64,000 bases of DNA, taken from NCBI GenBank assembly GCA_017848965.1, contig JAFIHA010000049.1, positions 37,563-101,562 of the forward strand, written 5' to 3'. A model generated the notes under the pieces. It had not been told where the DNA came from and made no database searches. It worked only from the letters and a program-made list of their open reading frames with translations. The first letter of the stretch is position 1; every line of letters starts with the position of its first letter. Shown here one piece after another: positions 46,927 to 64,000 of the stretch. This DNA comes from Dechloromonas aromatica (nom. nud.) (lineage in GTDB: Bacteria > Pseudomonadota > Gammaproteobacteria > Burkholderiales > Rhodocyclaceae). The translations under genes and the position numbers were made by a program.

Positions 46927-46942
46927 CGTAAATTTTTGCTGA
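46927..46942 (+). promoter_or_regulatory. Putative CbbR operator upstream of cbbM
   Basis: CGTAAATTTTTGCTGA matches CATAAATCATTGCTGA in the cbbF/cbbY control region at 13 of 16 bases, in the same orientation, 102 bp before the cbbM ATG. No other long shared stretch is visible between the two intergenic regions. CbbR is encoded downstream at 51650-52630. Confidence 0.5.
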
Positions 46943-47043
46943 ACCCCCCGGTAAAAATACGTGACTGTTATTTATCTTTCGCCCTTCCTAATATTCGCTC
47001 CATCGCCGCAGCAGACCGCACAACCACACACGGAGACAAGACG

Positions 47044-48423
47044 ATGGACCAATCGAACCGCTACGCCGACCTCAGCCTCAGGGAAGACGACCTGATCGCC
47101 GGCGGCCGCCACATCCTCTGCGCCTACAAGATGAAGCCGAAAGCCGGTTACGGTTACCTGGAGGCCGCCGCACACTTCGCCGCCGAGTCGTCGACCGGCA
47201 CCAACGTCGAGGTATGCACCACTGACGAATTCACCAAGGGCGTCGATGCGCTGGTCTATCACATCGACGAGGCCGGCGAGGAGATGCGCATCGCCTATCC
47301 GCTCGACCTCTTCGACCGCAACGTGGTCGATGGCCGGATGATGATCGTCTCCTTCCTGACGCTGACCATCGGCAACAACCAGGGCATGGGCGACATCGAA
47401 TACGCCAAGATGTACGACTTCTACGTGCCGCGCCGCGCCATCGAACTGTTCGACGGCCCGGCCAGGGACATTTCCGACCTCTGGCGCATCCTCGGCCGGC
47501 CGCTGCAGGACGGCGGCTACATCGCCGGCACCATCATCAAGCCCAAGCTCGGCCTGCGCCCCGAACCGTTCGCCGCCGCCGCCTACCAGTTCTGGCTGGG
47601 CGGCGACTTCATCAAGAACGACGAACCGCAGGGCAACCAGGTCTTCGCGCCGATGAAGAAGGTCATGCCCCTGGTGTACGACGCGATGAAGCGGGCGATG
47701 GACGAAACCGGCGAGGCCAAGATCTTCTCCGCCAACATCACCGCCGACTACCACGGCGAAATGATCGCGCGCGGCGAGTACATCCTCGAAACCTTCGGCC
47801 CGGACGCCGACAAGGTCGCCTTCCTGGTCGACGGTTACGTCGGCGGCCCGGGCATGGTCACCACCGCCCGCCGCTATTTCCCGGGCCAGTACCTGCACTA
47901 CCACCGCGCCGGCCACGGCGCCGTCACCAGCCCGCAGAGCAAACGCGGCTACACCGCCTACGTGCTGGCCAAGATGAGCCGCCTGCAGGGGGCATCCGGC
48001 ATCCACGTCGGCACCATGGGCTACGGCAAGATGGAAGGCGACAAGGACGACCGCGCCATCGCCTACATCATCGAGCGCGACAGCTACAGTGGGCCCGCCT
48101 ACCACCAGGAGTGGTACGGCATGAAGCCGACGACGCCGATCATCTCCGGCGGCATGAACGCCTTGCGCCTGCCCGGCTTCTTCGAGAACCTCGGCCACGG
48201 CAACGTGATCAACACCGCCGGCGGCGGTTCCTACGGCCACATCGACAGCCCGGCCGCCGGCGCCAAGTCGCTGCGCCAGGCCTACGAATGCTGGAAGGCC
48301 AAGGCCGACCCGATCGAATGGGCGAAGGAACACCCGGAATTCGCCCGCGCCTTCGTCTCCTTCCCGAACGATGCCGACAAGATCTATCCCGGCTGGCGGG
48401 AGAAGCTCGGCGTCCATAAGTAA
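47044..48423 (+). CDS. cbbM: Form II ribulose-bisphosphate carboxylase/oxygenase
   Basis: CO2-fixing RuBisCO large-subunit-only form II; 459 aa. It starts [17 protein letters not shown]. Active-site sequence: [16 protein letters not shown] (catalytic Lys), [14 protein letters not shown] (carbamylated Lys followed by the Asp and Glu metal ligands), [13 protein letters not shown] (His), and the loop-6 Lys in [14 protein letters not shown]. The length and lack of a small-subunit gene identify form II. A GGAGAC Shine-Dalgarno precedes the ATG. Followed by a terminator and then cbbQO. Confidence 0.98.
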
Positions 48424-48431
48424 GCATTCAC

Positions 48432-48457
48432 CAACCCCGCTTTGGCGGGGTTTTTTC
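48432..48457 (+). terminator. Rho-independent terminator after cbbM
   Basis: Stem AACCCCGC/GCGGGGTT around TTTG, followed by TTTT. It separates cbbM from cbbQ and could lower cbbQO expression relative to RuBisCO. Confidence 0.9.
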
Positions 48458-48482
48458 ACCCCAGCCGCAAAGGAAGCCCGCC

Positions 48483-49286
48483 ATGCCCACCGCCGACGAC
48501 TTCCGGGTTCGCCAGGAACCCTTCTACCAGCCGCAAGACAAGGAAATCGAACTGTACGAAGCGGCCTACGCCGCCCGCCTGCCGGTCATGCTGAAGGGGC
48601 CGACCGGCTGCGGCAAGTCGCGCTGCGTCGAGCACATGGCCTGGAAGCTGGGCAAGCCGCTGATCACGGTGGCCTGCAACGAGGACATGACGGCCGCCGA
48701 CCTGGTCGGCCGCTTCCTGCTCGACGCCGGCGGCACCCGCTGGCAGGACGGCCCGCTGACGCTGGCGGCGCGCCTCGGCGCCATCTGCTACCTCGACGAG
48801 ATCGTCGAGGCGCGTCAGGACACGCTGGTCGTCATCCACCCGCTGACCGATCACCGGCGCACGCTGCCGCTCGACAAGAAGGGCGAGCTGGTGGCGGCGC
48901 ACCCCGACTTCCAGCTGGTGATTTCCTACAACCCGGGCTACCAGAGCCTGGTGAAGGACCTCAAGCAATCGACCAAGCAACGCTTTGCCGCCTTCCAGTT
49001 CGACTACCCGAACAGCGCGCTGGAAACCGCCATCGTCTGCAGCGAGACCGGCATTGCCGCCGACCTCGCCGGCCGTCTCGTCGAACTCGCTCAGGCCGGC
49101 CGGCGGCTGAAGGGACACGGCCTCGACGAAGGCATCTCGACCCGCCTGATCGTCTATGCGGCCAGGCTGATCGGCCAGGGCAGCGCGCCGGCCGAGGCTT
49201 GCCGGATGGCGATGGTGCGCCCGATCACCGACGACCCGGACATCATCGACAGTCTCGACCACGCCATCGGCGCGATTTTCGGTTGA
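48483..49286 (+). CDS. cbbQ: RuBisCO activase subunit CbbQ (AAA+)
   Basis: A 267-aa MoxR-family AAA+ ATPase. Walker A LKGPTGCGKSRCVEHM, Walker B ICYLDEIVEARQD, and the conserved YNPGYQSLVKDLKQSTKQRF segment. With CbbO it forms the Q2O2-type activase that removes inhibitory sugar phosphates from form II RuBisCO. Located directly after cbbM. Confidence 0.96.
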   Translation: MPTADDFRVRQEPFYQPQDKEIELYEAAYAARLPVMLKGPTGCGKSRCVEHMAWKLGKPLITVACNEDMTAADLVGRFLLDAGGTRWQDGPLTLAARLGAICYLDEIVEARQDTLVVIHPLTDHRRTLPLDKKGELVAAHPDFQLVISYNPGYQSLVKDLKQSTKQRFAAFQFDYPNSALETAIVCSETGIAADLAGRLVELAQAGRRLKGHGLDEGISTRLIVYAARLIGQGSAPAEACRMAMVRPITDDPDIIDSLDHAIGAIFG

Positions 49287-49291
49287 GCGCC

Positions 49292-51583
49292 ATGGCCGTC
49301 CCCGGCATCCGCCAAGTGGCCGACGCCCGCCAGCGGCTGATGGCCAACCCTGAAGCGCAGGCAGCCTGGGCCACGCTCGATTGCGGTTTTGCCAGCGTCG
49401 CCGACGTTTTCGACGACTGTTACGCGGCGGCGAAGCAAGCGCTCACCGACGACGAACTCCCCGCCTTTATTGAAACCACCCGCCGGCTCGGCAAGCTGGG
49501 CCGGGGCGCCGAACCGCCGCTCGCCTTTCTCGAAGGCTGGCCGCGCGTGGTGGCGACGATCCCCCAGAACGAGGCTTTGCCGCTGCTCCTCGAAACCATC
49601 GACGAGTTGCAGAAATCGCCCAACGGCCCAGCCCTGACGCCGCTGCTGCAAACCCTGGGCGGCGTCGCCGAACGCCTGCGCAGCGCACTCGCCCTCGAAC
49701 ATTACCTGCGCCTGGCGCGCGATCTGGCGGCACGCACCTCAGGCTCGATCCACGGCCGCCAGGTCACCCAGGCCAGTCCGGCGCTGCCCGAATTCCTGCG
49801 CGTCGCACCGCAGCTCCTCGCCCTGGTCCCGCTGGCCGGCGTCCGGCGCTGGCTGGAAGACGGCATCCGCCTGAGCGGCGATCACCCGGAGCGCCTGCGC
49901 GAGTATTTCGCGCTGCGCTCGCCGGAAAGCCGCGCCCTCCTCCAGCAACAGCGCGCCGGCACCCTGTTCGCCGACGTCGAGCGCCGCCTCGCCCTCAGCC
50001 AGCAGAGCCTGTGGCAGGACGACAGCCGGCTCATTCCGTACTCGACCGCCTTCGTTGACCAAGTCCAGCAGCCCTACCTGGCCGCCGACGGCATGCGCCT
50101 GCCGGACGTCCTCGAAAAGCGCGCCGGGGTTTCCGGCAGCGACCGCTACCGGGCGATGCTCGCCCACCTGAGCGGCCACCGCCGCTGGAGCACGCCGCTC
50201 GTCGCCGACAACTGGAGCCCGCTGCAGCGCCTGAGCGTCGAAGCTTTCGAGGATGCCCGTATCGACGCGTTGATCGTCCATCGCTATCCCGGCCTGCGCC
50301 GGATTCTGCTGGCGCTGCACCCGATACCGGCCGCCGGCGCCTGCGACCCGGCCCGCGAGAATACCTTGCGCCACCGTCTGACCCGCCTGTCGCGCGCCTG
50401 CATCGACCGCGATTACCGTGACCCGGCCCCGCTGATCGACGAGTTCGCCGGCCGTTTCGCCGCCCTGCAGGCGGGAGGCAACGCCTCGACCCGGGCGATG
50501 GCCGAGCTGGCGCTCGCCTACGCCACCCGCAGCCGGCTGCCCAGCGACCAGTTCGCCCAGGTGCACTTCGCCGAAACCGAGGTCGATTACCGCGACGACA
50601 ACCGCCATCTGTGGACCTTCATCGAAACCGGCGACGAGGAGGAATCCTTCACCCCGCCGCCGCGCGCCGCCGAGCCCGAAGCGAGCGGCCTGCCGCCGCG
50701 TCACTACCCGGAATGGGACGCCGCCAGCCAGAGCTACCGGCCTGACTGGGTAGCGGTCTACGAAGCCCTGCACCCGGCCGGGCGCGCCGCCGACATCGAC
50801 GCGCTGCTCGCCCGCCACGCCGTACTCGCCCGCCGCCTCAAGCGCCTGCTCGACCTGGTCAAGCCGCAGGCCAGGGTGCGCGAGCGCTACCGCGAAAACG
50901 GCAGCGAACTCGACCTCGACGTCGCCATCGACGCCCTCGTCGACTGGCAGAGCGGGCGGCTGCCTGAAGCCCGCATCGAAATCAGCCAGCGCACTGCCGG
51001 CCGCGACATCAGCGTGCTCCTGCTGCTCGACCTCTCGCAATCGCTCAACGCCACGCTGCCGGGCAGCGGGCAGCGCGTGCTCGACACCGCGCGCGAGGCG
51101 GTCGCCCTGCTCGCCTGGGCCATCGACCAGCTCGGCGACGCCTGCGCCATCGCCGGCTTCCACTCGAACACCCGGCACGAGGTCCGCTACCACCACCTCA
51201 AGGGCTTCTCGGAAGCCTGGGACGACACGGTCAAGGCGCGGCTGGCCGCCGTCGAGGCCGGCTGGTCGACGCGCATGGGCGCCGCCCTGCGCCACGGCGG
51301 CCGCCTGCTTGCCGCCCGGCGCAGCGAGAAACGCCTGCTGCTCGTCCTGACCGACGGCGAGCCGGCCGACATCGACGTCAGCGACCCCGACTACCTGCTC
51401 GCCGATACGCGCCAGGCGGTCTCCGAACTGGCCGCCAGCGGCATCGACTGCTTTTGCCTCAGCCTCGACCCCAAGGCCGACGCCTACGTGGCGCAAATAT
51501 TCGGCCGGCGCTGGCGTGTCCTCGACCGGATCGAGCAGTTGCCCGAGCAGTTGCCGCTGATCTACCTCAACCTGACCCGTTGA
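49292..51583 (+). CDS. cbbO: RuBisCO activase subunit CbbO (VWA domain)
   Basis: A 763-aa adaptor of the CbbQO activase. The N-terminal two thirds are helical; the C-terminal VWA domain (~570-763) has an intact MIDAS (LLDLSQSLNAT, the DxSxS form; TDGEPADIDV). In the known system the VWA domain docks on a RuBisCO acidic residue while CbbQ provides ATPase force. I use the ATG at 49292, 5 bp after the cbbQ stop; a TTG at 49283 overlaps it. Confidence 0.93.
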   Translation: MAVPGIRQVADARQRLMANPEAQAAWATLDCGFASVADVFDDCYAAAKQALTDDELPAFIETTRRLGKLGRGAEPPLAFLEGWPRVVATIPQNEALPLLLETIDELQKSPNGPALTPLLQTLGGVAERLRSALALEHYLRLARDLAARTSGSIHGRQVTQASPALPEFLRVAPQLLALVPLAGVRRWLEDGIRLSGDHPERLREYFALRSPESRALLQQQRAGTLFADVERRLALSQQSLWQDDSRLIPYSTAFVDQVQQPYLAADGMRLPDVLEKRAGVSGSDRYRAMLAHLSGHRRWSTPLVADNWSPLQRLSVEAFEDARIDALIVHRYPGLRRILLALHPIPAAGACDPARENTLRHRLTRLSRACIDRDYRDPAPLIDEFAGRFAALQAGGNASTRAMAELALAYATRSRLPSDQFAQVHFAETEVDYRDDNRHLWTFIETGDEEESFTPPPRAAEPEASGLPPRHYPEWDAASQSYRPDWVAVYEALHPAGRAADIDALLARHAVLARRLKRLLDLVKPQARVRERYRENGSELDLDVAIDALVDWQSGRLPEARIEISQRTAGRDISVLLLLDLSQSLNATLPGSGQRVLDTAREAVALLAWAIDQLGDACAIAGFHSNTRHEVRYHHLKGFSEAWDDTVKARLAAVEAGWSTRMGAALRHGGRLLAARRSEKRLLLVLTDGEPADIDVSDPDYLLADTRQAVSELAASGIDCFCLSLDPKADAYVAQIFGRRWRVLDRIEQLPEQLPLIYLNLTR

Positions 51584-51649
51584 CGCTGGCCGATGCGACG
51601 CCTAGAGTTAAGCGATTCCGAATTTTTCATCGCTCCAGTTCACAAAAAC

Positions 51650-52630
51650 ATGAACTTCGTCCGCAACCTGACCCTGCGCCAGCTCCAGATCTTCGTCGTC
51701 GCCGCGCGCCACCTCAGCTACGCCCGCGCCGCCGAGGAGCTGCACCTGACGCCGCCGGCGGTGTCGATGCAGTTGAAGCAGCTCGAAGACAACGTCGGCC
51801 TGCCGCTGTTCGAACGCATGGGACGCGGCGTCGCGCTGACCGGCGCCGGTGAGCTGCTGGTCCATCACGCGCTGCGCATCCTGGGCGAGATCAAGGACGC
51901 GGAAGCCAGCCTGCAGGCGCTGAATGGCGCCGAAAGCGGCCAGATTTCGGTCGGCCTGGTCAGCACCGCCAAGTATTTCATGCCGCGCCTGCTCGCCAAG
52001 TTCGCCCAGCAACACCCCGGGGTCGATGTCCAGTTCAGCGTCGGCAACCGCCAGGCGCTGCTGCAGAAGCTGCAGGACAACGCCATCGACCTGGCGATCA
52101 TGGGCCGCATTCCGCAGGAAATCGACGCGCACGGCGAGCCGATGGCCTGCCACCCCTACGTCCTGATCGCCCCGGCCGACCACCCGCTGCGCGACGCCCG
52201 CCGCTTCGAGATGCACGAACTGCGGCACGAGACCTTCCTGCTGCGCGAGGAAGGGTCGGGCTCGCGGCGCGTCGCCGAGGAAATGTTCAAGAACCACCTG
52301 TTCACCCCGGCGCGGACGATCAGCATGGGCAGCAACGAAACGATCAAGCAGGCGGTGATGGCCGGCATGGGCGTCAGCCTGCTGTCGCTGCACACCTTGC
52401 CGCTGGAACTCAAGACCCACGCCCTGTGCCTGCTCGACGCGGTGGGCACGCCGATCGAGCGCACCTGGTACGTGGTCAACATGAGCGCCAAGCGCCTGAT
52501 GCCCGCCGCCGCCAAATTCCGCGCTTTCCTGCTCGATGAAACGGCACCCGCCCTGATCCAGGAATTCGACCGTCACCTGCTGAATCTGGAACGCCAGCCC
52601 TGCCCGTATTCCATCGACGGCAAAAACTGA
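51650..52630 (+). CDS. cbbR: LysR-type regulator CbbR
   Basis: Transcription activator of cbb genes responding to Calvin-cycle metabolites; 326 aa. N-terminal winged HTH (LTLRQLQIFVVAARHLSYARAAEEL...PPAVSMQLKQLEDNVG), then the LysR effector domain (~95-300; VGLVSTAKYFMPRLLA, REEGSGSRR, SMGSNETIKQAV). The STAKYF and SNETIKQAV wording is characteristic of CbbR. The ATG at 51650 fits the family start better than 51593. Unusually, it lies downstream of cbbMQO in the same direction rather than divergent from a cbb promoter. Confidence 0.93.
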   Translation: MNFVRNLTLRQLQIFVVAARHLSYARAAEELHLTPPAVSMQLKQLEDNVGLPLFERMGRGVALTGAGELLVHHALRILGEIKDAEASLQALNGAESGQISVGLVSTAKYFMPRLLAKFAQQHPGVDVQFSVGNRQALLQKLQDNAIDLAIMGRIPQEIDAHGEPMACHPYVLIAPADHPLRDARRFEMHELRHETFLLREEGSGSRRVAEEMFKNHLFTPARTISMGSNETIKQAVMAGMGVSLLSLHTLPLELKTHALCLLDAVGTPIERTWYVVNMSAKRLMPAAAKFRAFLLDETAPALIQEFDRHLLNLERQPCPYSIDGKN

Positions 52631-53384: not shown

Positions 53385-56300
53385 CTAAAGACTAGCTATT
53401 ACTCCCTTTGGCAGATACGAAAAACCAAAGGACCTGTCCCAGCACAAAGCAGGCGGATCATTAGAACAACGTACCTGTAACTCCAATCCTGCTTCAGGAA
53501 CAATTTCCATCCCAACACAGATGGAGGACAGTTCATCCAGCTCCCAGGCTAGCCAGTCGTTAACTAGGCGATGCACTTCCCCTGCCAAAGCACGGGTCAA
53601 CCAGGGTTCAGTCTCGCCAGCTCGCGCTTGGCGCCGGAAGACCCAGGCTCCATCCACGTTCTCGGCCCGCCAAGCTTCCAGGGGTACGCCATCGCGCAAG
53701 GCGTAGCGGCTGTAGAAGGACTGAGTCATCCATTGGGAGCGGGCGTCCTCTTTTGCTTCGAGGATGCTCAAGGGCTCCTTGAGGCGGGCCCGGACGATAC
53801 GATCTTCATCCTTCGCCATCCTACCCTGGCCCAGACGCAGACGTGCATCCAAGGCGTTCAGGTCGGCGTCGGCCAGCAGGGAGAACAAATCGTGGCTGGA
53901 ATAGCGGTGGGCCATAGACCTGGACTCCAGACCTGGCCAGACAAAGCAAGGCTCGCCAGTACGCCCCTCCAGCCAGCGCCGGTTGTACTGCAGGATCGCC
54001 ACGTTGGGCTCGCTCACCGAGCGCTGGCGGTGTCGGTTGATGCGACCGGCGGTCTGAACAATGGAATGAGCGCTGGAAGGCTCGATCACCCCCCAGTCGA
54101 AATCATGGTCGCGGCCGATTTCCTCCACCGGGGTCGCCACGACGATGAAGGGCACGTCGGGCGCGGCACTGGCCGCCAGCAACCCAGTGATTTCCGCGTC
54201 CTGCACGATGTGCCCGTCGCCCCGTTTGCGGTTCAAGAGGAAATCCAGTCGCCTTTCCTTCAGATAACGCTGGATGCGGAACTCCTGGGCGTGGTAGCAC
54301 GCGACCCGGGCCAGGGGGAAGGCCAGGGCCAGGGCCCGCGCCGTGGAGATGGCCGTACTGATGTTGGCTACCCGCACCAGACCGAAGGACAGGCGCTTGC
54401 CACCCGGCCCGTTCCAGGCATGGGCCTCGTGCAAGCGCGCCACTGCAGTGGCGATAGCTTCGTGGAAGGCCGCACCGCCGCGAGTGCAGACCGGCAGCAC
54501 CCAGGCCCGCCGCACCGCCGGGCGCGGCACGGCCAGCAGGCGCTGGACATGCTCGGCAAATTGCCCGGCCAGATCCGCGTCGCTGGTGCAGGTGGTGGGC
54601 GCCGTCTGGTCATCCACGATGGCGATGCCGAAACAGGCCTGCCGTTCTTCCAGGGCGCAACGCATCTCCACGCCGCTGCGAAAGGCCCGGCACACGGCCT
54701 CGGCCACCGGCTGGGGCAGGGTCGCCGAGGAGCAGATGACGCTGCGCCCCATCAACCCCGCCACCTGTACCAGCCGCAGCACGGCCACCAGGGCGCCGGG
54801 CTCGTAGGAATCCACCTCGTCCAGCACCAGGTCGCTGTCGGCCATGCGCAGCAGGGCCGAGACATGGTGGCCCTGGCGCCCGGGTTCCCCGGCATTGATC
54901 AGGTAGTCGATGGTAGACACCAGCACCGGGGCGCCGATCACGCTGCGCAGCAGCGGCCGCCGCTCGGTCAGCACCCGCATCCATTCCGGCAGTTCCACCT
55001 CACCGCCCCGAGCGTCGTATTCGGTCGCCGGTCCTTCGCTCTCGAAAGTGCCCGCATGGGCGGCATCGTCGTCCTTGCCCGCCGCGTGCAGCCGGCTGGC
55101 GGTGCGGTCGCCGATCACCGTGGCCAGTTCGTCTTCCCCCAGACCCAGATCGTCGGCCAGGGCATCGCCGGTCTGCAGGGTCAGGCTGCGCAGGTTGAGG
55201 GCGATGGCGAAGCGGGGCCGGGGCGACAGCGCGCAGGCCAGCTTGGCGTTGGCGATGGTCTTGCCGGCGCCGGTGGCCGCCATGTTGAAGATCAGCAGCC
55301 CGCCTTGCGAACGCTCCCGCAGGGCGCTCACTGCCGCCACCGCCCGGTTCTGCCAGGCGAAACGCCCCCCTTCGTCAGCGGGCGACAGAATGTGCTCGAC
55401 GCTCTCCGTCGCCAACCCGGGCAGGCGCAGGCTGGCCAGATGCCAGGCGAAGTCGGCGGCGCGACCACCCACGGTGCGCAGGTGCCAGTCCAGGGGCTGA
55501 TCGTAGGCGCCCTCCTTGGTGTTGGCGTACAGACCACAACCCTGCACGCCTCCCGGCCGGGGGCGGGCGGAAACCCCATGGTCGGCGAGGATCAGCGCCG
55601 CCCGGGCGAGGATTGCCGCCCCTCGCCAGAAGGCCGGGCTGCGCTCCCCGGCCTTGCGGACCAGACGGGCCTGGAGCCGCTCCAGCCTTTCGAGCAGTTC
55701 GTCGGGTAATGCCCCGGCAGGTTTCAGTTCCCGGGCCCGGCAGTCTTCCAGCACATGGTTGTCGCTGGTGGGGGTCGAATTACCCTTCACCGGGCCGAAC
55801 AGGCGGTGATGGGTGGCGATCAGGTAATCCAGGGCATGCTGGGGGCTGTCGATGCCCGTATCTTCCAGTCCGCCCGGTTCGCACAGAGGCAGCTTGTTCG
55901 CCAAGGCCGACCAGGCCTGGCCCCAGTCGCGCCCCCGGCGCCGTTCCTGCAGCAGGCGCATGGATATCCACTCGTGGCGGACCGGATCGGCTTCGGGAGG
56001 GCCGCCCGCTACCGCCCGGGCCAGCTTGTCGGCAAAGAAATTGCCGGACTTGCCCAGGTCGTGCCCCAGCCCCGCCGTATGGGCCAGCAGGCCGACGATG
56101 CTGAGCCAGAAAGGCGGCGGCGCCCGGCGCCGGGTGTGACCGGCGGGGAAATGCCCTTCCGGCCCGAAGCAGTCCCGGGCGCCCACCACCCACAACAACC
56201 GCATCCGCTCCCGCCCCTCGTTGCGGTAACAGGCCACCGCCGTCTGCCGGGTGGCCGAGGCCTTGAGCAGGCCGCGCAACTCCCGCAGCCCTTCGAGGGT

Positions 56301-56411
56301 GATCGGCGTCGCCCAGGAACGGACTCCGGTGCGGATCGCGTAACTGTCCAGAATCGCCCGGCTCCGCTTCACCGCCCGCCGCTCGCAGGCTGAAATCAGG
56401 GTGATGTGCAT
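53385..56411 (-). CDS. cas3f: Cas2-Cas3 fusion, type I-F
   Basis: A 1008-aa interference nuclease-helicase fused to the adaptation subunit. Residues 1-~95 are a Cas2 domain (MHITLISACERRAVKRSRAI...). An HD nuclease follows (LGHDLGKSGNFF ~115; VRHEWIS). The SF2 helicase has Walker A ATGAGKTIANAK, DEVDSYE box, SSATLPQP, the I-F-specific TPVEEIGRDHDFDW and motif VI QTAGRINRHRQR. Somewhat shorter than the usual ~1100 aa. It is transcribed away from cas8f, and its start lies 30 bp from a degenerate CRISPR repeat. Confidence 0.95.
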   Translation of the reverse strand: MHITLISACERRAVKRSRAILDSYAIRTGVRSWATPITLEGLRELRGLLKASATRQTAVACYRNEGRERMRLLWVVGARDCFGPEGHFPAGHTRRRAPPPFWLSIVGLLAHTAGLGHDLGKSGNFFADKLARAVAGGPPEADPVRHEWISMRLLQERRRGRDWGQAWSALANKLPLCEPGGLEDTGIDSPQHALDYLIATHHRLFGPVKGNSTPTSDNHVLEDCRARELKPAGALPDELLERLERLQARLVRKAGERSPAFWRGAAILARAALILADHGVSARPRPGGVQGCGLYANTKEGAYDQPLDWHLRTVGGRAADFAWHLASLRLPGLATESVEHILSPADEGGRFAWQNRAVAAVSALRERSQGGLLIFNMAATGAGKTIANAKLACALSPRPRFAIALNLRSLTLQTGDALADDLGLGEDELATVIGDRTASRLHAAGKDDDAAHAGTFESEGPATEYDARGGEVELPEWMRVLTERRPLLRSVIGAPVLVSTIDYLINAGEPGRQGHHVSALLRMADSDLVLDEVDSYEPGALVAVLRLVQVAGLMGRSVICSSATLPQPVAEAVCRAFRSGVEMRCALEERQACFGIAIVDDQTAPTTCTSDADLAGQFAEHVQRLLAVPRPAVRRAWVLPVCTRGGAAFHEAIATAVARLHEAHAWNGPGGKRLSFGLVRVANISTAISTARALALAFPLARVACYHAQEFRIQRYLKERRLDFLLNRKRGDGHIVQDAEITGLLAASAAPDVPFIVVATPVEEIGRDHDFDWGVIEPSSAHSIVQTAGRINRHRQRSVSEPNVAILQYNRRWLEGRTGEPCFVWPGLESRSMAHRYSSHDLFSLLADADLNALDARLRLGQGRMAKDEDRIVRARLKEPLSILEAKEDARSQWMTQSFYSRYALRDGVPLEAWRAENVDGAWVFRRQARAGETEPWLTRALAGEVHRLVNDWLAWELDELSSICVGMEIVPEAGLELQVRCSNDPPALCWDRSFGFSYLPKGVIASL

Positions 56412-56441
56412 GGTGTTTGCTCAGGTCCGTGGTAGCCTTGC

Positions 56442-56521
56442 GGCCGCCACCGGGAAGGTGGTTGAGAAGTAGTTTTTCGGTGAAATACCGACAGTGTGCC
56501 GCCGTGCAGGCGGTTAAGAGA
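56442..56521 (+). CRISPR. Degenerate two-repeat mini-CRISPR in the cas promoter region
   Basis: Two diverged copies of the array repeat: 56442-56469 and 56494-56521, each identical to the 61270 array repeat at 22 of 28 positions, separated by a 24-nt guide (56470-56493). Repeat 1 keeps the exact 8-nt 5' handle TTGAGAAG; its stem changes G8 to A and C18 to T together, preserving pairing. Repeat 2 keeps the CCGCC/GGCGG stem unchanged with a GTGCA loop. Cas6f could process both, giving a handle, a 24-nt guide and a 3' hairpin. I find no clear promoter upstream of it. Confidence 0.85.
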
Positions 56522-56545
56522 ACTGGCGAAGGCCGCAAATATGTC

Positions 56546-56571
56546 CCTAGTTAGTCGGAAAAATCGCGAGC
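56546..56571 (+). promoter_or_regulatory. Putative target (CC PAM + protospacer) of the mini-CRISPR guide
   Basis: CC at 56546-56547 (the type I-F PAM) followed by a 24-bp site matching the mini-CRISPR guide at 16 positions: TAGTT at 1-5, TCGG at 8-11, AAAT at 14-17 and CGA at 20-22. Mismatches are at 6, 7, 12, 13, 18, 19, 23 and 24. The seed is perfect. It ends 3 bp upstream of the candidate -35 box of the cas8f operon, so a Cascade bound here would block that promoter, and it also lies in the upstream region of cas2-3. Confidence 0.75.
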
Positions 56572-56574
56572 AAT

Positions 56575-56603
56575 TTGACTCCCAAGAAAAAGCGGCGTAG
56601 CGT
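56575..56603 (+). promoter_or_regulatory. Candidate promoter of the cas8f-cas1 operon
   Basis: TTGACT at 56575-56580 (5 of 6 to the -35 consensus), 17-bp spacer, TAGCGT at 56598-56603 (3 of 6 to -10). Transcription would begin near 56610, about 30 bp before the ATG; a GAGGAG Shine-Dalgarno sits at 56628-56633. Weak -10, so unproven. Confidence 0.5.
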
Positions 56604-56639
56604 GCCAACATCATAGCCATCCTAATCGAGGAGCATGAC

Positions 56640-57737
56640 ATGGCACGTTCCAAGAAGCCCGCCGCCCCCGAACCCCCAGCGTGGGTCAGCCTGCCCCACG
56701 AGCTCTACGCGGCCACCTGTGCCGAACTCGTCACCTTTTCCCACAAGACCGTCAATTCCAACGCCCCGGCCGGCGGCATCCGCCTGGAACCGGGGCAGGG
56801 GCTGAAGCTGCCTTATGTCTCCGCCCGCACCCTGCTTGGGGCAGGGGAGGCGCTAGCCCTGGATTACCCAGCCAATGCCGGCAAGACGGCCACTGCGGTC
56901 AAGCAGTTGAACCAGCTCAGGGAGGGCAGTGCCACGGCTCCGGCCGACGAGGCCGAACGCATCCTGGCAACCCTGGCGGAAGCCACCGCCCAGGGCACCC
57001 AGATCGGCACCGACAAGGTTTCCCTGCGCGCCCGGCAGTTGTTGCTGCCGAAAGAAGGCGGTTACGTGGCGGTCACGCCGCTCACCGCTGGCGGGTTGAA
57101 CCGCAAGCTCCGGGCCCGGGTACGCCAGCACAACGACCATTTGAAGGAAACGCCGGACGACAGCCGGCGGCGGATTCCCTTCGCGGTGTTCGGTCTGGGG
57201 GGCTCCAACCCCCAGAACGTGGGGTCCCTGGTACGCGACATGCAGCGCCCTCTGGTCTTCTTCGCTCCCCCGGAAAACCGCCAGGTGAAGGCCATCCTCG
57301 CCCTGCATTTCCAGGGGGTGCGCATCCGCCTGCCTCGCCCCCTGCTGCGCGCTTTCCGGGACTGGTGTGTTGACTGCCGGCGACGCCATGGGGGCTTGAT
57401 CCCCACCAACATGGCTACCCGGGACGAGGAAATCGTCCACATCCGCCGCATCGCCCGGATCGTCCTGGCCCAGGGCGAAGCCGCCCGGCAGCGCCTGCTG
57501 GCCCACCGGGAGCTGCTGCCGGCGGGCGGCTCGCCCCTGGTTGCCGCCGAGGCCACCCCTCTGAACCGGGGGCTGGTGGACCCCGAGCTGCGCGACAAGG
57601 ACTGGCCCCGGACCTTTGCCCTGCACCTGGCCGGGCTGATCGCCGACCACCGTTTCGGCGATGGCCAGGAGGAGTTCCAGTTCGAACAGGCCGACATCTT
57701 CGAACTGCAGGCCATGATCGAGGAGGTGGCGCGATGA
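56640..57737 (+). CDS. csy1: Divergent Cas8f (Csy1) large subunit
   Basis: PAM-recognising large subunit of the I-F Cascade; 365 aa, shorter than the usual ~430. Csy1-like landmarks: VTFSHKTVNSNAPAGGI (compare the KFTHPDAK region), PYVSARTL (compare YVSTSSL), and FGLGGSNPQNVGSLVRDM...FFAPP, equivalent to the GGTKPQNIS...LPP core of Csy1. The overall sequence is diverged, so automatic profiles may miss it. It starts after GAGGAG, and its stop overlaps the cas5f start (ATGA). Confidence 0.8.
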   Translation: MARSKKPAAPEPPAWVSLPHELYAATCAELVTFSHKTVNSNAPAGGIRLEPGQGLKLPYVSARTLLGAGEALALDYPANAGKTATAVKQLNQLREGSATAPADEAERILATLAEATAQGTQIGTDKVSLRARQLLLPKEGGYVAVTPLTAGGLNRKLRARVRQHNDHLKETPDDSRRRIPFAVFGLGGSNPQNVGSLVRDMQRPLVFFAPPENRQVKAILALHFQGVRIRLPRPLLRAFRDWCVDCRRRHGGLIPTNMATRDEEIVHIRRIARIVLAQGEAARQRLLAHRELLPAGGSPLVAAEATPLNRGLVDPELRDKDWPRTFALHLAGLIADHRFGDGQEEFQFEQADIFELQAMIEEVAR

Positions 57738-58576
57738 GTTACCTGCTCCTGCCCCGCCTGCGCATCCGCGCCGCCAACGCCCTGGCCGGCAATCTGGCGA
57801 TCAGCCCGGCTCAGGTCCTGGCCTGCGTGCTGTTCGGCCACAACCTGGGTCTCAAGACCGGCTGCAAGCCTTTGCGCGTCGCCATCCTGCACCACGACGC
57901 CCAACTGCTGGGCGAGTACGGCAGCGATGGCTTCTACGACTTCCATCCCCAACAGCGGCGGGGTGCCAGCTTTATCGACGGGGTGGACTACTCCTCCAAG
58001 AACCCCCACGCCCTGTCGCTACAGCCCACCGCCAGCTGCCACCTGACCCTGTCGCTGCTGATCCGGGTGCAAGGCAGCGTCAACGAGCAGCGGGTTGAAC
58101 GCTTCCTGCGCAGCGCCCGCATCGCGGGCGGCAACATCGACGGCCATGCCAAGATCGAGACAGGAAACGAACTGGACGAGCTGCATCTGCCCAAGGGCTT
58201 CTGGCTGATCGAACGCAGCGACCTGCTCCAGGGTGAAGGCTCCCCGGTGGATGCTCTGGTCGCCGCCATCGGCCGCAAGCCAGCCAGGGACACAGCGCCC
58301 CCGGCCCCGTCCGACGGCACGCCGCCGCCCCTGCCCGAATCCTGGCTCGCCGCCAGCGTGCTCGGCTATGCCATGACCACCCCTTTCGAAACCCGGGCCG
58401 GCGTGCGCCAGACCGACGCGGGCGACACCCCGCCCCATGCCTTCTGTGAGCCCCTGCTCGGCCTGGTCCAGTACGTCTCCACCCGGGACTACGGCCAGCG
58501 CCCGATTCCCTGGTGGGAACACGGCTGGCTCCAGGACGACGTGTTCGTGGTCCGCCAGCAGCAGGCCCCCCAGTAA
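57734..58576 (+). CDS. csy2: Cas5f (Csy2)
   Basis: Backbone subunit that caps the 5' handle of the crRNA; 280 aa against ~320 usual. Landmarks: YLLLPRLRIRAANALAGNLAI at the start (overlapping segments), RSARIAGGNI, LPKGFWLIERSDLL, and a C-terminal PWWEHGWL like the FWRHGW end of Csy2. Coupled to cas8f by ATGA; 39-bp gap with AAAGGAGC Shine-Dalgarno before cas7f. Confidence 0.82.
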   Translation: MSYLLLPRLRIRAANALAGNLAISPAQVLACVLFGHNLGLKTGCKPLRVAILHHDAQLLGEYGSDGFYDFHPQQRRGASFIDGVDYSSKNPHALSLQPTASCHLTLSLLIRVQGSVNEQRVERFLRSARIAGGNIDGHAKIETGNELDELHLPKGFWLIERSDLLQGEGSPVDALVAAIGRKPARDTAPPAPSDGTPPPLPESWLAASVLGYAMTTPFETRAGVRQTDAGDTPPHAFCEPLLGLVQYVSTRDYGQRPIPWWEHGWLQDDVFVVRQQQAPQ

Positions 58577-58615: not shown

Positions 58616-59692
58616 ATGAATGCACCCGAATTCAAGAAACTGCCCGGCGTCCTCGCCTTCCAGCGCGGCCTGGTGATTACCGATGCCCTGTTTTTCAACG
58701 TGCTGCCCGAGGGCCAGAGCCCGGTCATGGTGGTGCGCCACGGCATCCGCGGCACCCAGAACGTGAACAAGGACGGGGACGCGGAGAAGAGCACGGCCGC
58801 CAACGCCAAGCGCCAGGAGGTCTCCAACATCCAGACCACCGACACCGCCAAGCTGGATGAAGAAGCCCAGGCCTTGGCCGTGCGCTTCAGCCTGCGCTTT
58901 CTCGATCTGAAGGACGTGCTGTTCGCCTGCGCCCCCGCCAGCACCGACGCCGACGACCTGGTGCGCAACTACCGGGACAGCGTCACCGGCTTCATCGAAC
59001 GGGCCAAGGCCTCCGGCGGCCTGGACGAAGTCGCCCAGCGCTTTGCCCGCAACATCGCCAACGGCCGCTGGCTGTGGCGCAACCGCACCATCGCCCGCAA
59101 GATCGAAGTCAGCGTCAACGTCGCCGGCAAACCCGTCGCCAGCTTCGACGCCCTGGCCACCCCCTTGAATCATTTCGACCAGATCAGCGACGCCGAGCGC
59201 CAGGTGGCCACCTACATTGCCGATGGACTGCGCGGCAGTGACGATAGCGGTCTCGACATCGAGGCGCGGCTGGATTTCGGCGTGCGCGGCGCCCTGGAAG
59301 TCTTCCCCTCCCAGAACTACGTGGAAGACAAGCCCCGCGGCTTCGCCCGTCCCCTCTACTGCCTGGGCACGCCGGAACGGGCCAGCAGCCGCAGCGGCAT
59401 GGAGTTCGAAAGCACCCGCACCATGGGCCACGCCGCCCTGCGCGACCAGAAGATCGGCAACGCCCTGCGCACCATCGACACCTGGTACCCGAAATACGCC
59501 GACCATGGCCGGCCGCTGCCGGTGGAACCCAACGGCGCCAGCCTGGAAGCCCAGGAATTCTTCCGCGACCGCAAGACCTCCGCCTTCGAGTTCGCCCGCC
59601 GCCTCAACACCCTGGACCCGGCCAGTCCCGAAGGCATGTTCATGATCGCCAGCCTGATCCGGGGCGGGGTCTTCTCCGGGGGCAAGGAGTGA
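58616..59692 (+). CDS. csy3: Cas7f (Csy3) backbone subunit
   Basis: Six-copy crRNA-binding backbone of I-F Cascade; 358 aa. Strong Csy3 identity: LPGVLAFQRGLVITDALF, VRHGIRGTQN, ARNIANGRWLWRNR, QEVFPSQ-equivalent LEVFPSQNYV, KIGNALRTIDTWYP and the C-terminal IASLIRGGVFSGG. It has good Shine-Dalgarno spacing and should be the most abundant subunit. Its stop shares a base with the cas6f ATG. Confidence 0.95.
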   Translation: MNAPEFKKLPGVLAFQRGLVITDALFFNVLPEGQSPVMVVRHGIRGTQNVNKDGDAEKSTAANAKRQEVSNIQTTDTAKLDEEAQALAVRFSLRFLDLKDVLFACAPASTDADDLVRNYRDSVTGFIERAKASGGLDEVAQRFARNIANGRWLWRNRTIARKIEVSVNVAGKPVASFDALATPLNHFDQISDAERQVATYIADGLRGSDDSGLDIEARLDFGVRGALEVFPSQNYVEDKPRGFARPLYCLGTPERASSRSGMEFESTRTMGHAALRDQKIGNALRTIDTWYPKYADHGRPLPVEPNGASLEAQEFFRDRKTSAFEFARRLNTLDPASPEGMFMIASLIRGGVFSGGKE

Positions 59693-60222
59693 TGGAAGCG
59701 CGCCATTACGTGGACTTCCAGCTCGGGCCGCGTCCCTCGCCGATAGGGGCGGCCCTGGCCCTGCGGGTGCTGCACGGGGTGTTCGCGCTCTACCCGGGGC
59801 AGTACGCCCTGGCGCTGCCCGACTACCCGCGCAGCTTTCCCCGCCTGCGGGTGTTCGCCGCCAGTCGGGAAAACCTGGACCGGCTGGTGGCGGCTGGCGA
59901 AGCCGCACTCCAGGAGATCGGCCGCTTCGCCTATCCCAAGGCCGTCCCCGAGGACTTCGCCGGCCCCTGGATCAGCTATCGCCGCTACCGCATCCCCAGC
60001 CGCAAGGCGGAACGCAAGCCCGACGGCAACCTGCGCCTGCGCCGCATCCAGGCCGCCGACACCGCCGAACTGCCCTACTTCGCCCTGCGCAGCCAGAGCA
60101 ACGGCCAGGCCTGGCGCCTCTACGTGGAAGCCCAGCCCGGCTCGACGCCGGGGCTGGCGGAACCGGACGCCTACGGGCTGGCCACCGCCTCCCGCCCCTT
60201 CGCCCTGCCCCGGCTGCCATGA
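59692..60222 (+). CDS. csy4: Cas6f (Csy4) crRNA endonuclease
   Basis: Cleaves the repeat hairpin and stays on the crRNA 3' end; 176 aa from the ATG at 59692 (a GTG one codon upstream is the alternative). His28 in RVLHGVF matches the catalytic His29 of P. aeruginosa Csy4. YFALRSQSNGQAWRLYVE matches the LRSQSTGQ-FRLF block with the catalytic Ser. YGLATASRPFALP matches the C-terminal YGLS segment. Overlaps cas1 (ATGA). Confidence 0.92.
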   Translation: MEARHYVDFQLGPRPSPIGAALALRVLHGVFALYPGQYALALPDYPRSFPRLRVFAASRENLDRLVAAGEAALQEIGRFAYPKAVPEDFAGPWISYRRYRIPSRKAERKPDGNLRLRRIQAADTAELPYFALRSQSNGQAWRLYVEAQPGSTPGLAEPDAYGLATASRPFALPRLP

Positions 60223-61172
60223 ACAAGGCCCGCCCCAAGCCCCGGCAGATCCTGCTCTCCAAGCGGGCCAACATCTTCTATCTGGAGCACGCCCGGGTGC
60301 TCCAGAAGGATGAGCGCATCGTCTGGCTCACCGAAACCGGAGAAGACGTGGAGCAGTACTTCAACCTGCCGGAACGCAACACCGCCCTGCTGCTGCTCGG
60401 CAAGGGCACCTCGGTCACCGACGCCGCCATGCGCCGGCTGGCCGAATCCAACGTGCTGGTGGGCTTCTGCGGCAGCGGCGGCTCGCCCCTGTTCGCCGCC
60501 GCCGAGCCGGTCTTTCTCACCCCCCAGAGCGAATACCGGCCCACCGAATACATGCAGGCCTGGGTGCGCCAGTGGATGGACGAAGCGCGGCGCCTGGAAC
60601 TGGCCAAGGCCCTGATCGCCGAACGCATCACCCTCACCGGCAAGGCCTGGGCCAGGAACAGCGAATTGCTGCAAAGAAAGATAGAACTCCCCGCCGCCGC
60701 CATCGACAAGCTCCGCCAGCGCAGCGCCACCGTGCCCGACACCCAGGCCCTGCTGCTGGCCGAAGCCGAATGGGCCCGGGCGCTCTACGCCAGCCTCTCG
60801 GCCGGCCACGGCCTCAACTTCACCCGCCAGGAAGGCATGGGCGCCAAGGGCAGCAAGGAAGAGCGGATCAACTCTTTCCTCGACCACGGCAACTACATCG
60901 CCTACGGCCTCGCCGCCGTCGCCCTCAATGGTCTAGGCATCAGCTACGCCTTCCCCCTGCTGCACGGCAAGACCCGGCGCGGCGCCCTGGTCTTCGACAT
61001 CGCCGACCTGATCAAGGACGCCTACGTGATGCCCCTGGCCTTCACCTGCGGCGCCGACCTCCGCGTCAAGGACAACCCCTACCGGGCCCTCCTCATCGAA
61101 ACCCTGCAGGACGCGGACGCCCTCGACTTCCTGTTTGGCTTCGTCAAACAGCTCTGCGAAAAACCCGTTTAA
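60219..61172 (+). CDS. cas1: Cas1, type I-F
   Basis: Spacer-integration nuclease; 317 aa of the Yersinia (I-F) subtype: ILLSKRANIFYLEHARVL, LLLGKGTSVTDAAM, GFCGSGGSPLF, ARALYASLSAGHGLNFTR (metal-binding Glu nearby), DHGNYIAYGLAA, FPLLHGKTRRGALVFDIADLIKD. It is last in the operon, next to the array; canonical I-F loci put cas1 first, next to cas2-3. Confidence 0.95.
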   Translation: MNKARPKPRQILLSKRANIFYLEHARVLQKDERIVWLTETGEDVEQYFNLPERNTALLLLGKGTSVTDAAMRRLAESNVLVGFCGSGGSPLFAAAEPVFLTPQSEYRPTEYMQAWVRQWMDEARRLELAKALIAERITLTGKAWARNSELLQRKIELPAAAIDKLRQRSATVPDTQALLLAEAEWARALYASLSAGHGLNFTRQEGMGAKGSKEERINSFLDHGNYIAYGLAAVALNGLGISYAFPLLHGKTRRGALVFDIADLIKDAYVMPLAFTCGADLRVKDNPYRALLIETLQDADALDFLFGFVKQLCEKPV

Positions 61173-61269: not shown

Positions 61270-64000
61270 GTTTGCCGCCGGGTAGGCGGTTGAGAAGATC
61301 GTCTCGCCAGTGCTTCGATCACACCAGGTGTTTGCCGCCGGGTAGGCGGTTGAGAAGTCGAACAGTCCGGTGCGGATGCCGCGGCTATCGTTTGCCGCCG
61401 GGTAGGCGGTTGAGAAGATGGAGCGAACGGCAGCGGTCTCGGATTGCGAGTTTGCCGCCGGGTAGGCGGTTGAGAAGTGGTCGGCGAAGCGGCTGTCGGC
61501 GTCCTTCTTGTTTGCCGCCGGGTAGGCGGTTGAGAAGTGGGCACGAACAGCCGGACGGCGCAGAGCTATGTTTGCCGCCGGGTAGGCGGTTGAGAAGAGT
61601 GCAATCGCGGTTGAAAGTAGCGTACTGACGTTTGCCGCCGGGTAGGCGGTTGAGAAGACGCGCCGGCCAACCCATCAGCATCGCCCAGAGTTTGCCGCCG
61701 GGTAGGCGGTTGAGAAGAGGGCAAGGCGAATGTCAGCGCCGAGGCCGTCGTTTGCCGCCGGGTAGGCGGTTGAGAAGTAGATGAAACAACGCCTATTGGT
61801 CATGAATGGGTTTGCCGCCGGGTAGGCGGTTGAGAAGACCAGGGCGGCGGCATCGACGTAGTCATTGTTGTTTGCCGCCGGGTAGGCGGTTGAGAAGACA
61901 GCCGCCGGCGACCGGGCACGATACTACTTGTTTGCCGCCGGGTAGGCGGTTGAGAAGTCCAGAACCCGGCCACCAAGGGCGCCGCCATCGTTTGCCGCCG
62001 GGTAGGCGGTTGAGAAGCGGACGCCGAAGTCATCCGCGCCGCATCCCTTGTTTGCCGCCGGGTAGGCGGTTGAGAAGACGAAAAAGGAAACCCGCATCGC
62101 CTTCGACGCGTTTGCCGCCGGGTAGGCGGTTGAGAAGTTCCCGGCGACCTTGGGCTGCGCGCCGAGCGCGTTTGCCGCCGGGTAGGCGGTTGAGAAGACT
62201 ACCACCACGCCGCCGCCGTCCCGGTACCAGTTTGCCGCCGGGTAGGCGGTTGAGAAGACCCAGGACACCCCGGTCGGCGGATTCGACATGTTTGCCGCCG
62301 GGTAGGCGGTTGAGAAGCTGAAGGAGAAAAAGCAGTGAAAACCCTCGCCGGTTTGCCGCCGGGTAGGCGGTTGAGAAGCGGGGCCGGCGCAATGCCGCAG
62401 GACTGGGAAGGTTTGCCGCCGGGTAGGCGGTTGAGAAGGTCAGCTCCGGGCGCCACAGGCCGCCGGTCAGGTTTGCCGCCGGGTAGGCGGTTGAGAAGGC
62501 CATCGCCCTGATAGTTGGACAGGGTGATTTGTTTGCCGCCGGGTAGGCGGTTGAGAAGCTGGTGGCGAGCGACATGCAGGGGCTGCAGCGCGTTTGCCGC
62601 CGGGTAGGCGGTTGAGAAGGCGAGCAACTGCCGATCGTCATTGATGAAGTCGTTTGCCGCCGGGTAGGCGGTTGAGAAGCTGAGATTGCCCGAGTATACG
62701 GACCACGCGCCGTTTGCCGCCGGGTAGGCGGTTGAGAAGTCTGTGATGGACGCCGCCAAGGAACGAATTGCGTTTGCCGCCGGGTAGGCGGTTGAGAAGC
62801 AGTACAGCCAGCGGCTGCGAGCAATGCCCGCGTTTGCCGCCGGGTAGGCGGTTGAGAAGGTTTTGCGGAAGCGGGCGGATTGGATGCCACTGTTTGCCGC
62901 CGGGTAGGCGGTTGAGAAGAAAGGCACCACAGGTTTCCGCATCGACACCAAGTTTGCCGCCGGGTAGGCGGTTGAGAAGTTGATGAGCTGGATGGGGTTG
63001 CGGGTGCTGGCGTTTGCCGCCGGGTAGGCGGTTGAGAAGTATTGGGCACATCGGATGACTAAGGCGATGCGGTTTGCCGCCGGGTAGGCGGTTGAGAAGT
63101 ATCGGGATCACGCAGTTGAGGCCGCAGCTCCGTTTGCCGCCGGGTAGGCGGTTGAGAAGTTGATGTTCCGCTCCTCCATGGTGAGCGGCGTGTTTGCCGC
63201 CGGGTAGGCGGTTGAGAAGTTACCGAGGGAGAGGTCCTTCAGCGCGCTCGCCGTTTGCCGCCGGGTAGGCGGTTGAGAAGCTGCCCGCCGTCGCCACCGT
63301 CAAAGCCGCCGCGTTTGCCGCCGGGTAGGCGGTTGAGAAGATGGAACTGGTGCGCGACCTGGGCGGCCAAGCGTTTGCCGCCGGGTAGGCGGTTGAGAAG
63401 ACTCACACCGATCAACCCTGATGTAGGAATGCGTTTGCCGCCGGGTAGGCGGTTGAGAAGGCCAGGCAGCATCTTGCCGTCGCGATCGTACTGTTTGCCG
63501 CCGGGTAGGCGGTTGAGAAGACTGGCTTGGTGTTGGAGCGCAAAGTCGGCACGTTTGCCGCCGGGTAGGCGGTTGAGAAGTGACGGCTAACGCTAGCTTG
63601 AGCGGCCTGCCGGTTTGCCGCCGGGTAGGCGGTTGAGAAGAAGGGGGCAGTGTCGCAGGCGGTGAGCCGCGTGTTTGCCGCCGGGTAGGCGGTTGAGAAG
63701 TTGATGTTGTAGATGTCGTCGCCGTGCTCGACGTTTGCCGCCGGGTAGGCGGTTGAGAAGAAGCTGGACGCCAAGAAAGGCTGCAATACCGGGTTTGCCG
63801 CCGGGTAGGCGGTTGAGAAGAAGGCCGAACTGCTGGACATGGTCATTGCTGCGTTTGCCGCCGGGTAGGCGGTTGAGAAGTGCGGCTCCGCGCCGCACAA
63901 CTTGAGCGTTAGGTTTGCCGCGGGGTAGGCGGCTGAGAAGATTGTGCCGGTCCAAAACACGGCGTCCGCCCGGTTTGCCGCCGGGTAGGCGGTTGAGAAG
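61270..64000 (+). CRISPR. Type I-F CRISPR array, at least 46 repeats / 45 spacers, open to the right
   Basis: 28-bp repeats beginning GTTTGCCGCC and ending GGCGGTTGAGAAG, with stem CCGCC-GGGTA-GGCGG, homologous to the I-F repeat (GTTCACTGCC...GCTAAGAAA). I count 46 repeats: 18 from 61270, 4 from 62351, 11 from 62592, 13 from 63253. Spacers are 32 bp, except three of 33 bp (starting 62318, 62559 and 63220). All repeats read as identical except 63913. No spacer is repeated. The last repeat ends exactly at the window edge, so the array probably continues. Confidence 0.98.
63913..63940 (+). repeat. Single variant repeat in the array
   Basis: Differs from the other repeats at position 10 (C to G, loop-closing base pair lost) and position 21 (T to C, first base of the 5' handle). 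A perfect repeat follows at 63973, so this is not the terminal repeat within the window. Confidence 0.9.

Follow-up and report, generated by a model that had tools for sequence, protein, structure and literature searches.

The closest described counterparts of the element analysed here are the cas-regulating RNAs (CreR; Liu et al. 2023 Cell Host Microbe, as presented in reviews), mini-CRISPR RNAs that exert autorepression through the effector. In reviews CreR is called widespread in type I and V-A, and one review gives I-B, I-E and V-A as the types for which it was reported; the statement of the earlier note on this DNA that CreR-type autorepressors are known at other cas operons is therefore in print for these three types. 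A second system is the type I-F CreTA of Acinetobacter (Wang et al. 2023, PMC10097628), whose CreA was tested and represses through CC-flanked partial pairing. The natural CreA guide departs from its target at positions 6, 11 and 18; of single mismatches, those at 2-5, 7-9 or 13-17 abolished function, those at 10, 12, 19 or 20 were harmless, and a canonical seed is lacking.

The window, by which we mean the whole stretch of 64,000 nucleotides analysed in this work, contains a type I-F CRISPR-Cas locus, and a mini-array of 80 bp (repeat R1, guide and repeat R2) lies between its divergent cas2-3 and cas8f genes. It resembles CreR in having a mini-CRISPR guide that partly matches the promoter region of its own cas operon, whereas the review mentioned reports CreR for I-B, I-E and V-A and the window belongs to type I-F, with the mini-array in the gap between the two divergent genes. 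With the Acinetobacter CreTA it shares two degenerate repeats, a short guide, the cas3-csy1 gap and a CC-flanked partial target; there, however, the target controls a toxin RNA and the gap measures about 400 bp, whereas in the window the target lies right next to the predicted promoter of cas8f and leaves no place for a toxin. Since CreR and a I-F mini-array in the same slot are already in print in these sources, novelty is limited to the individual locus: the remark in the earlier note that the locus had not been seen described can hold in this narrow sense, and not for CreR autorepression or for the slot. Mini-arrays partly complementary to cas8 promoters were reportedly noticed in many type I systems by Shmakov and co-workers (in NAR, in 2023), and one type I-F1 mini-array is said to have been tested there as a regulatory guide; for its part, the present analysis measured the co-change of guide and target and a 6-nt mismatch period. 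Judged from its sequence, the mini-array of the window belongs to a kind already known from other CRISPR systems and appears to be a new, unusually well supported example of it.

Organization of the locus, the mini-array and its target

The features of the locus, in window coordinates, are the following.
53385..56411, minus strand: cas2-3 fusion (TIGR02562 and I-F Cas2 domain), divergent from the effector operon
56430..56438, plus strand: candidate extended -10 of the mini-array (TGGTAGCCT), predicted, 3 bp before R1
56442..56469, plus strand: R1, first degenerate repeat, 22/28 matches to the array repeat
56462..56513, plus strand: predicted mature crRNA-like RNA of 52 nt, deduced from the repeat register
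56470..56493, plus strand: 24-nt guide, TAGTTTTTCGGTGAAATACCGACA
56494..56521, plus strand: R2, second degenerate repeat, 22/28 matches to the array repeat
56546..56547, plus strand: CC PAM
56548..56571, plus strand: target site, TAGTTAGTCGGAAAAATCGCGAGC, 16/24 matches to the guide, seed of 5
56575..56603, plus strand: predicted cas8f promoter, TTGACT-17-TAGCGT (-35 at 56575-56580, -10 at 56598-56603)
56640..57737, plus strand: cas8f/csy1-like gene, heading the operon presumed to be regulated
57734..58576, plus strand: cas5f/csy2
58616..59692, plus strand: cas7f/csy3
59689..60222, plus strand: cas6f/csy4
60219..61172, plus strand: cas1
61270..64000, plus strand: main CRISPR array, 28-nt repeat, spacers of about 32 nt, reaching the contig end

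The cas2-3/cas8f gap measures 228 bp, and R1 starts 30 nt from the cas2-3 start codon. The cas8f gene is short and its match to Csy1 is weak (21.8 bits vs. a cut-off of 22.7). When 100 genomes of relatives, 59 of them of the same genus, were searched for this cas8f, it was found in one, the window's own, and was absent from the other 99; for this reason the type I-F locus looks acquired by transfer. The contig ends where the window ends, so the main array (61270-64000) is cut by the contig edge. Genes for a RuBisCO large chain, a CbbQ-type AAA protein and a LysR regulator are found nearby, at 46936-52630.

The earlier note had read two degenerate copies of the array repeat around a 24-nt guide, and the repeat scan of the gap agrees with this reading. 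The scores of R1 and R2 exceed the best matches in 100 shuffled gaps (median 14, 17 at about 99%), and the third-best place of the real gap reaches 14. As with CreR, these degenerate repeats lie outside the array and near the cas genes. The R1 stem, CCACC/GGTGG, keeps its pairing through a two-sided change from CCGCC/GGCGG, and its 8-nt handle, TTGAGAAG, is identical to that of the array repeat; R2 has the stem of the array repeat and 5 of the 8 handle letters. In folding, both repeats adopt the array-repeat fold, the stability of R1 being not above that of 11 of 200 shuffles. The Rfam search of the mini-array gave nothing beyond one sub-threshold repeat match, that of R2 to CRISPR-DR4 (22.8 bits vs. 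a gathering value of 35). Cas6f/Csy4 cuts after the repeat stem in other I-F systems; assuming the same cut here, the predicted 52-nt RNA would consist of an 8-nt handle, the 24-nt guide and a 20-nt 3' hairpin. The motif CCGTGnTAnnCT, placed at the candidate -10 of the mini-array, is invariant in the window and in three of the related loci presented below (L009, L010 and L011). The guide contains a 5-bp inverted repeat at 56477-56491 (TCGGT-GAAAT-ACCGA), which can fold inside the guide RNA; by eye, the guides of L009-L011 have no such internal repeat.

The target starts 54 nt after the end of the guide, and the coordinates, sequences and counts given in the earlier note for the PAM, the seed and the site were all confirmed. 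Guide and target differ at positions 6, 7, 12, 13, 18, 19, 23 and 24. None of 3000 guide shuffles and none of 3000 target-region shuffles reached the score of 16/24, and among the 11,505 CC-flanked sites of the 64-kb window the target ranks first, the runner-up having 14 matches. The pattern of matched positions, searched in the whole genome, was found without mismatch at one site; further matches were the guide itself (2 mismatches) and then two sites with 3. A chance match between guide and target was ruled out by these shuffles together with the swap matrix and the 6-nt period described below. A tandem duplication of guide and target was also considered and rejected, since no similarity is visible in the 8 nt before them or in the 20 nt that follow. 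The derivation of the guide from one of the present spacers of the array was rejected as well: of up to 44 spacers, the closest matches the gap at 19/32, as a raw count.

Apart from the start of cas8f, the 68 bp that follow the target are occupied by the predicted promoter and a ribosome-binding site and by nothing else; as in CreR, no separate toxin unit is coupled, and the PAM-flanked partial match falls in the promoter region of the locus's own cas genes, this promoter being a predicted one. The earlier note had placed the target 3 bp before the best -35 box of cas8f. The spacing to the TTGACT hexamer is indeed 3 nt, and a weight-matrix score ranks TTGACT-17-TAGCGT first among the plus-strand sites of the gap, L009-L011 having counterparts of it, but a consensus promoter scan of 56250-56750 found no site at its threshold. 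On the minus strand of the window no convincing cas2-3 promoter was found, the best candidate scoring 6.7 and lying on the far side of the cas8f promoter.

Guides and targets across related loci

Eight further mini-array loci were tested together with the window: L009 (Rhodocyclus tenuis), L010 (a Comamonadaceae MAG), L011 (Zoogloea), L012 (Parachitinimonas), L013 (Thiobaca), L015 (Modicisalibacter), L033 (an Allochromatium plasmid) and L040 (a genome of the same order). Cas7 searches at given E-value limits returned 6 of 399 genomes in the order, 4 of 369 in the class and 1 of 398 in the phylum, each count including the window's genome; in the family of L009 the search returned 1 of 199 genomes, that one including L009's own. 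The plasmid search gave 4 records, and among viral contigs there was one locus; its gap and the L009 gap read the same. Dropped before the counts were L032 (gap equal to that of L009 by eye), L024 (no cas8f match), L027 and L030 (on contigs equal in length to those of L012 and L022, and taken as the same) and L048 (contig starting just before cas7). The limits of the gap are approximate in L015, L016, L021, L023 and L036, because there the cas2-3 match starts at residue 95-103.

Two loci, L035 (20-nt guide) and L020, were kept apart from the nine-locus tests, since what follows is a KilAC-domain gene in L035 and, by eye, a KilAC-like remnant in L020; the L035 guide matches a CC-flanked site at 16/20, and the match in L020 is 11/24. 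L035 (4058-4893, Acinetobacter sp. plasmid) has the mini-array, then the KilAC-domain gene, then cas8f, an arrangement which resembles the described CrePA, whose protein typically carries a KilA-N domain. L020 (7277-7852, Acinetobacter rathckeae) shows a single repeat, an unconvincing target and the remnant just mentioned.

The earlier note had proposed to look in relatives for independent drift of repeats and target. We found none: guides differ among the nine loci, and every locus has a CC-flanked target of its own guide in its own gap, so that matched guide and target are kept in relatives (9/9 loci tested), as in CreR. In the eight relatives these targets have 14 to 18 matches of 24 and a seed of 5 to 11. 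When guides and gaps were swapped, the own gap scored highest for all nine guides; the reverse comparison fails once, as the gap of L010 fits the L009 guide (17) better than its own (15). Of 3000 guide shuffles, the real score was reached by 0 in the window, 1 in L009, 1 in L010, 2 in L011, 18 in L012, 0 in L013, 25 in L033, 0 in L040 and 0 in L015; for target shuffles the numbers, in the same order, were 0, 0, 10, 0, 12, 0, 59, 0 and 0, the weakest single matches being those of L033, L012 and L010. Compared with L009, L010 and L011, the window shows paired changes of guide and target at 4, 3 and 5 positions, respectively; for example, at position 5 guide and target both have T in the window and both have A in the Zoogloea locus.

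In 8 of the 9 loci the targets are situated at the predicted promoter or leader of cas8f. They are beside or just over the -35 in the window, L009, L010 and L011, over the -35 in L015, and downstream of the predicted promoter in L013, L033 and L040. The exception is L012, where the gap measures 662 bp and the target lies about 430 bp from cas8f on the opposite strand. Guides are 20-27 nt long in 9 of 10 loci and 38 nt in L012, as compared to about 32 nt for the array spacers of the window. R1 falls below the shuffle limit in L015 (15 vs. 17) and is level with it in L040 (17 vs. 17).

In type I Cascade, every sixth guide base is flipped out and left unread. The mismatches of the window recur with a 6-nt period, on which the earlier note was silent, and across the nine loci positions 6, 12 and 18 are mismatched in 18 of 27 cells, as compared to 19 of 135 elsewhere in positions 1-18, a split that none of 200,000 within-block permutations reached. 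With one locus per group the counts were 12/15 vs. 9/75 or 11/15 vs. 9/75 (none of 200,000 in each case) and, with a third choice, 9/15 vs. 13/75 (P 0.001); without the first block they were 13/18 vs. 19/90 (P 0.0001), and the window alone gave P 0.018. The repeats of 10 loci have decayed unevenly. In R1, the letters kept were 75/80 in the handle, 29/50 in the lead, 80/100 in the stem and 34/50 in the loop, and in R2 they were 100/100 in the stem, 28/80 in the handle, 36/50 in the lead and 42/50 in the loop. This decay fits the predicted mature RNA, from which the R2 handle would be cut away, and together with the period it points to a Cascade-bound guide. The proposal of the earlier note that the mini-array guides Cascade thus draws support from the co-change, the mismatch period and the repeat decay; repeats, guide, target, co-change and read-out period can be read directly in the DNA.

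Rival readings of the mini-array and of the gap

If the mini-array were what remains of an old array and matched its surroundings by accident, it would have degenerate repeats, as found here, and in L015 and L040 R1 is no better than shuffles; however, decay has affected the R2 handle and spared the R1 handle and the R2 stem, and the co-change, the own-gap fit in 9/9 loci and the 6-nt period, with guide and target drifting apart in none of the nine, make a relic extremely improbable. Ordinary immune memory against a foreign element, with an accidental match to the host, would account for the repeat-spacer-repeat form. Immune arrays, however, have conserved repeats and 32-nt spacers against foreign DNA, whereas the window has degenerate repeats, a 24-nt guide and a local target; moreover, the relatives' guides differ and yet match the local gap, they are shorter than spacers in 9 of 10 loci, and the flanks of guide and target have no visible similarity, so that this reading is very unlikely. 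The guide might instead belong to a CreTA-type addiction module and repress a small toxin RNA in place of the cas genes. The published Acinetobacter I-F CreTA occupies the same cas3-csy1 gap and, as in the window, its mini-array has a CC-flanked target; L012, with its long gap and distant reversed target, could be such a module. On the other hand, no separate unit that would give a toxin RNA from a promoter at the target fits in the window, where the 68 bp between target and cas8f are taken up by promoter and ribosome-binding site and leave no room for a toxin transcript, unless this were the cas8f leader; spans are equally short elsewhere (about 70 bp in L009 and 62 bp in L011), and we consider an addiction module unlikely. 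Finally, Cascade at the target could activate transcription or merely buffer it, since activators also bind upstream of the -35. The known CreR and CreA cases repress, however, and in L013, L033, L040 and L015 the predicted promoter is overlain by the site or lies upstream of it, so that a complex bound there is hardly able to activate; activation or buffering has, in our opinion, a small probability.

A further reading extends control to both sides of the gap: the bound site would act on the cas8f-cas1 operon and on the divergent cas2-3, and the guide RNA would be antisense to the cas2-3 leader. We regard it as possible but rather doubtful. In 8 of the 9 mini-array loci with a clear start, R1 lies 13-31 nt from the cas2-3 start codon; therefore the cas2-3 promoter must be within or beyond the mini-array, which makes the guide antisense to the cas2-3 leader in those 8 loci. 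In L013 (3852-4005) the top minus-strand site, the near-consensus TTGAAA-17-TAAAAT, overlaps the target and is a candidate cas2-3 promoter. Against this reading, such a promoter is clear in L013 only and the window has no convincing one, and in L035 R1 lies 139 nt from the cas2-3 start. Control of cas2-3 as well would mean that a single small RNA keeps the surveillance complex in balance with its nuclease.

The contents of the gap were compared in 25 loci: 10 have a repeat pair, 1 a single repeat (L020), 3 an array in the gap (L023, L034 and L036, of which L023 and L036 by eye only), 8 are labelled WYL and 3 have nothing. Six of the eight WYL-labelled loci (L014, L017, L018, L019, L022 and L041) match the Pfam WYL model, and in these a WYL-domain gene on the strand of cas2-3 fills the cas2-3/cas8f gap, with no mini-array; L042 has no such match, and L050 is counted by its label only. 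A WYL gene is thus confirmed in 6 of the 11 loci that have no mini-array, single repeat or array, and therefore the gap appears to be a habitual place for a regulator. As judged by eye, the gap of the Pseudomonas loci L023 and L036 holds a long array whose repeats have strongly diverged and whose spacers are irregular in length. On the tree of the 25 loci (L020 labelled apart), the mini-array label needs 4 changes, 3 of them forced by well-supported branches; therefore the mini-array was probably gained or lost more than once. In the widest form of dual control, which we put forward tentatively, one guide RNA from one site might govern the Cascade operon and cas2-3, its own transcript being antisense to the cas2-3 leader with a promoter at or inside the cas2-3 start, and the gap might be an exchangeable socket holding a guide RNA or a WYL-domain protein according to the lineage.

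A likely CreR-type autorepressor

On the sequence evidence presented above, the mini-array is likely to be a CreR-type autorepressor that steers Cascade to the cas8f promoter. Its transcript would be a crRNA-like guide RNA of the CreR kind, which Cas6f would cleave at R1 and R2 and on which the Csy proteins would assemble. Cascade carrying this guide would bind the CC-flanked site at 56548-56571 via partial pairing and, because the pairing is partial and the guide is short (24 vs. 32 nt), would stay bound without triggering cutting by Cas3. Placed just upstream of the -35, it may hinder RNA polymerase at the promoter of cas8f-cas5f-cas7f-cas6f-cas1. Plentiful free Cascade would then lower the transcription of the Cascade operon and so limit its own supply, and the brake would be released once abundant crRNAs or anti-CRISPRs had taken up the free Cascade. 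Transcription, processing, binding, the sign of the regulation and its signal are steps that we infer, repression in particular by analogy with the known CreR and CreA cases.

Some observations speak against the autorepressor. The guide of the window is mismatched at positions 7 and 13, which in the Acinetobacter I-F CreA (PMC10097628) are sensitive and needed for function. The position of the target varies among loci, an internal hairpin of the guide RNA is possible, and the cas8f promoter is missed by the consensus scan. The weak single matches of L033, L012 and L010, the better fit of the L009 guide to the L010 gap, the low R1 scores of L015 and L040 and the fold stability of R1 in the window count on the same side. 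The 5-nt seed alone is not strong evidence, because the Acinetobacter CreA has no canonical seed.

As a CreR-type autorepressor, the mini-array would add a divergent type I-F lineage to the CRISPR systems with natural RNA-guided self-control, and the evolutionary evidence for it is strong. The 6-nt mismatch period may offer a simple way to separate true Cascade regulatory targets from chance matches, and the guides may represent natural, tuned templates for gene silencing without cutting.
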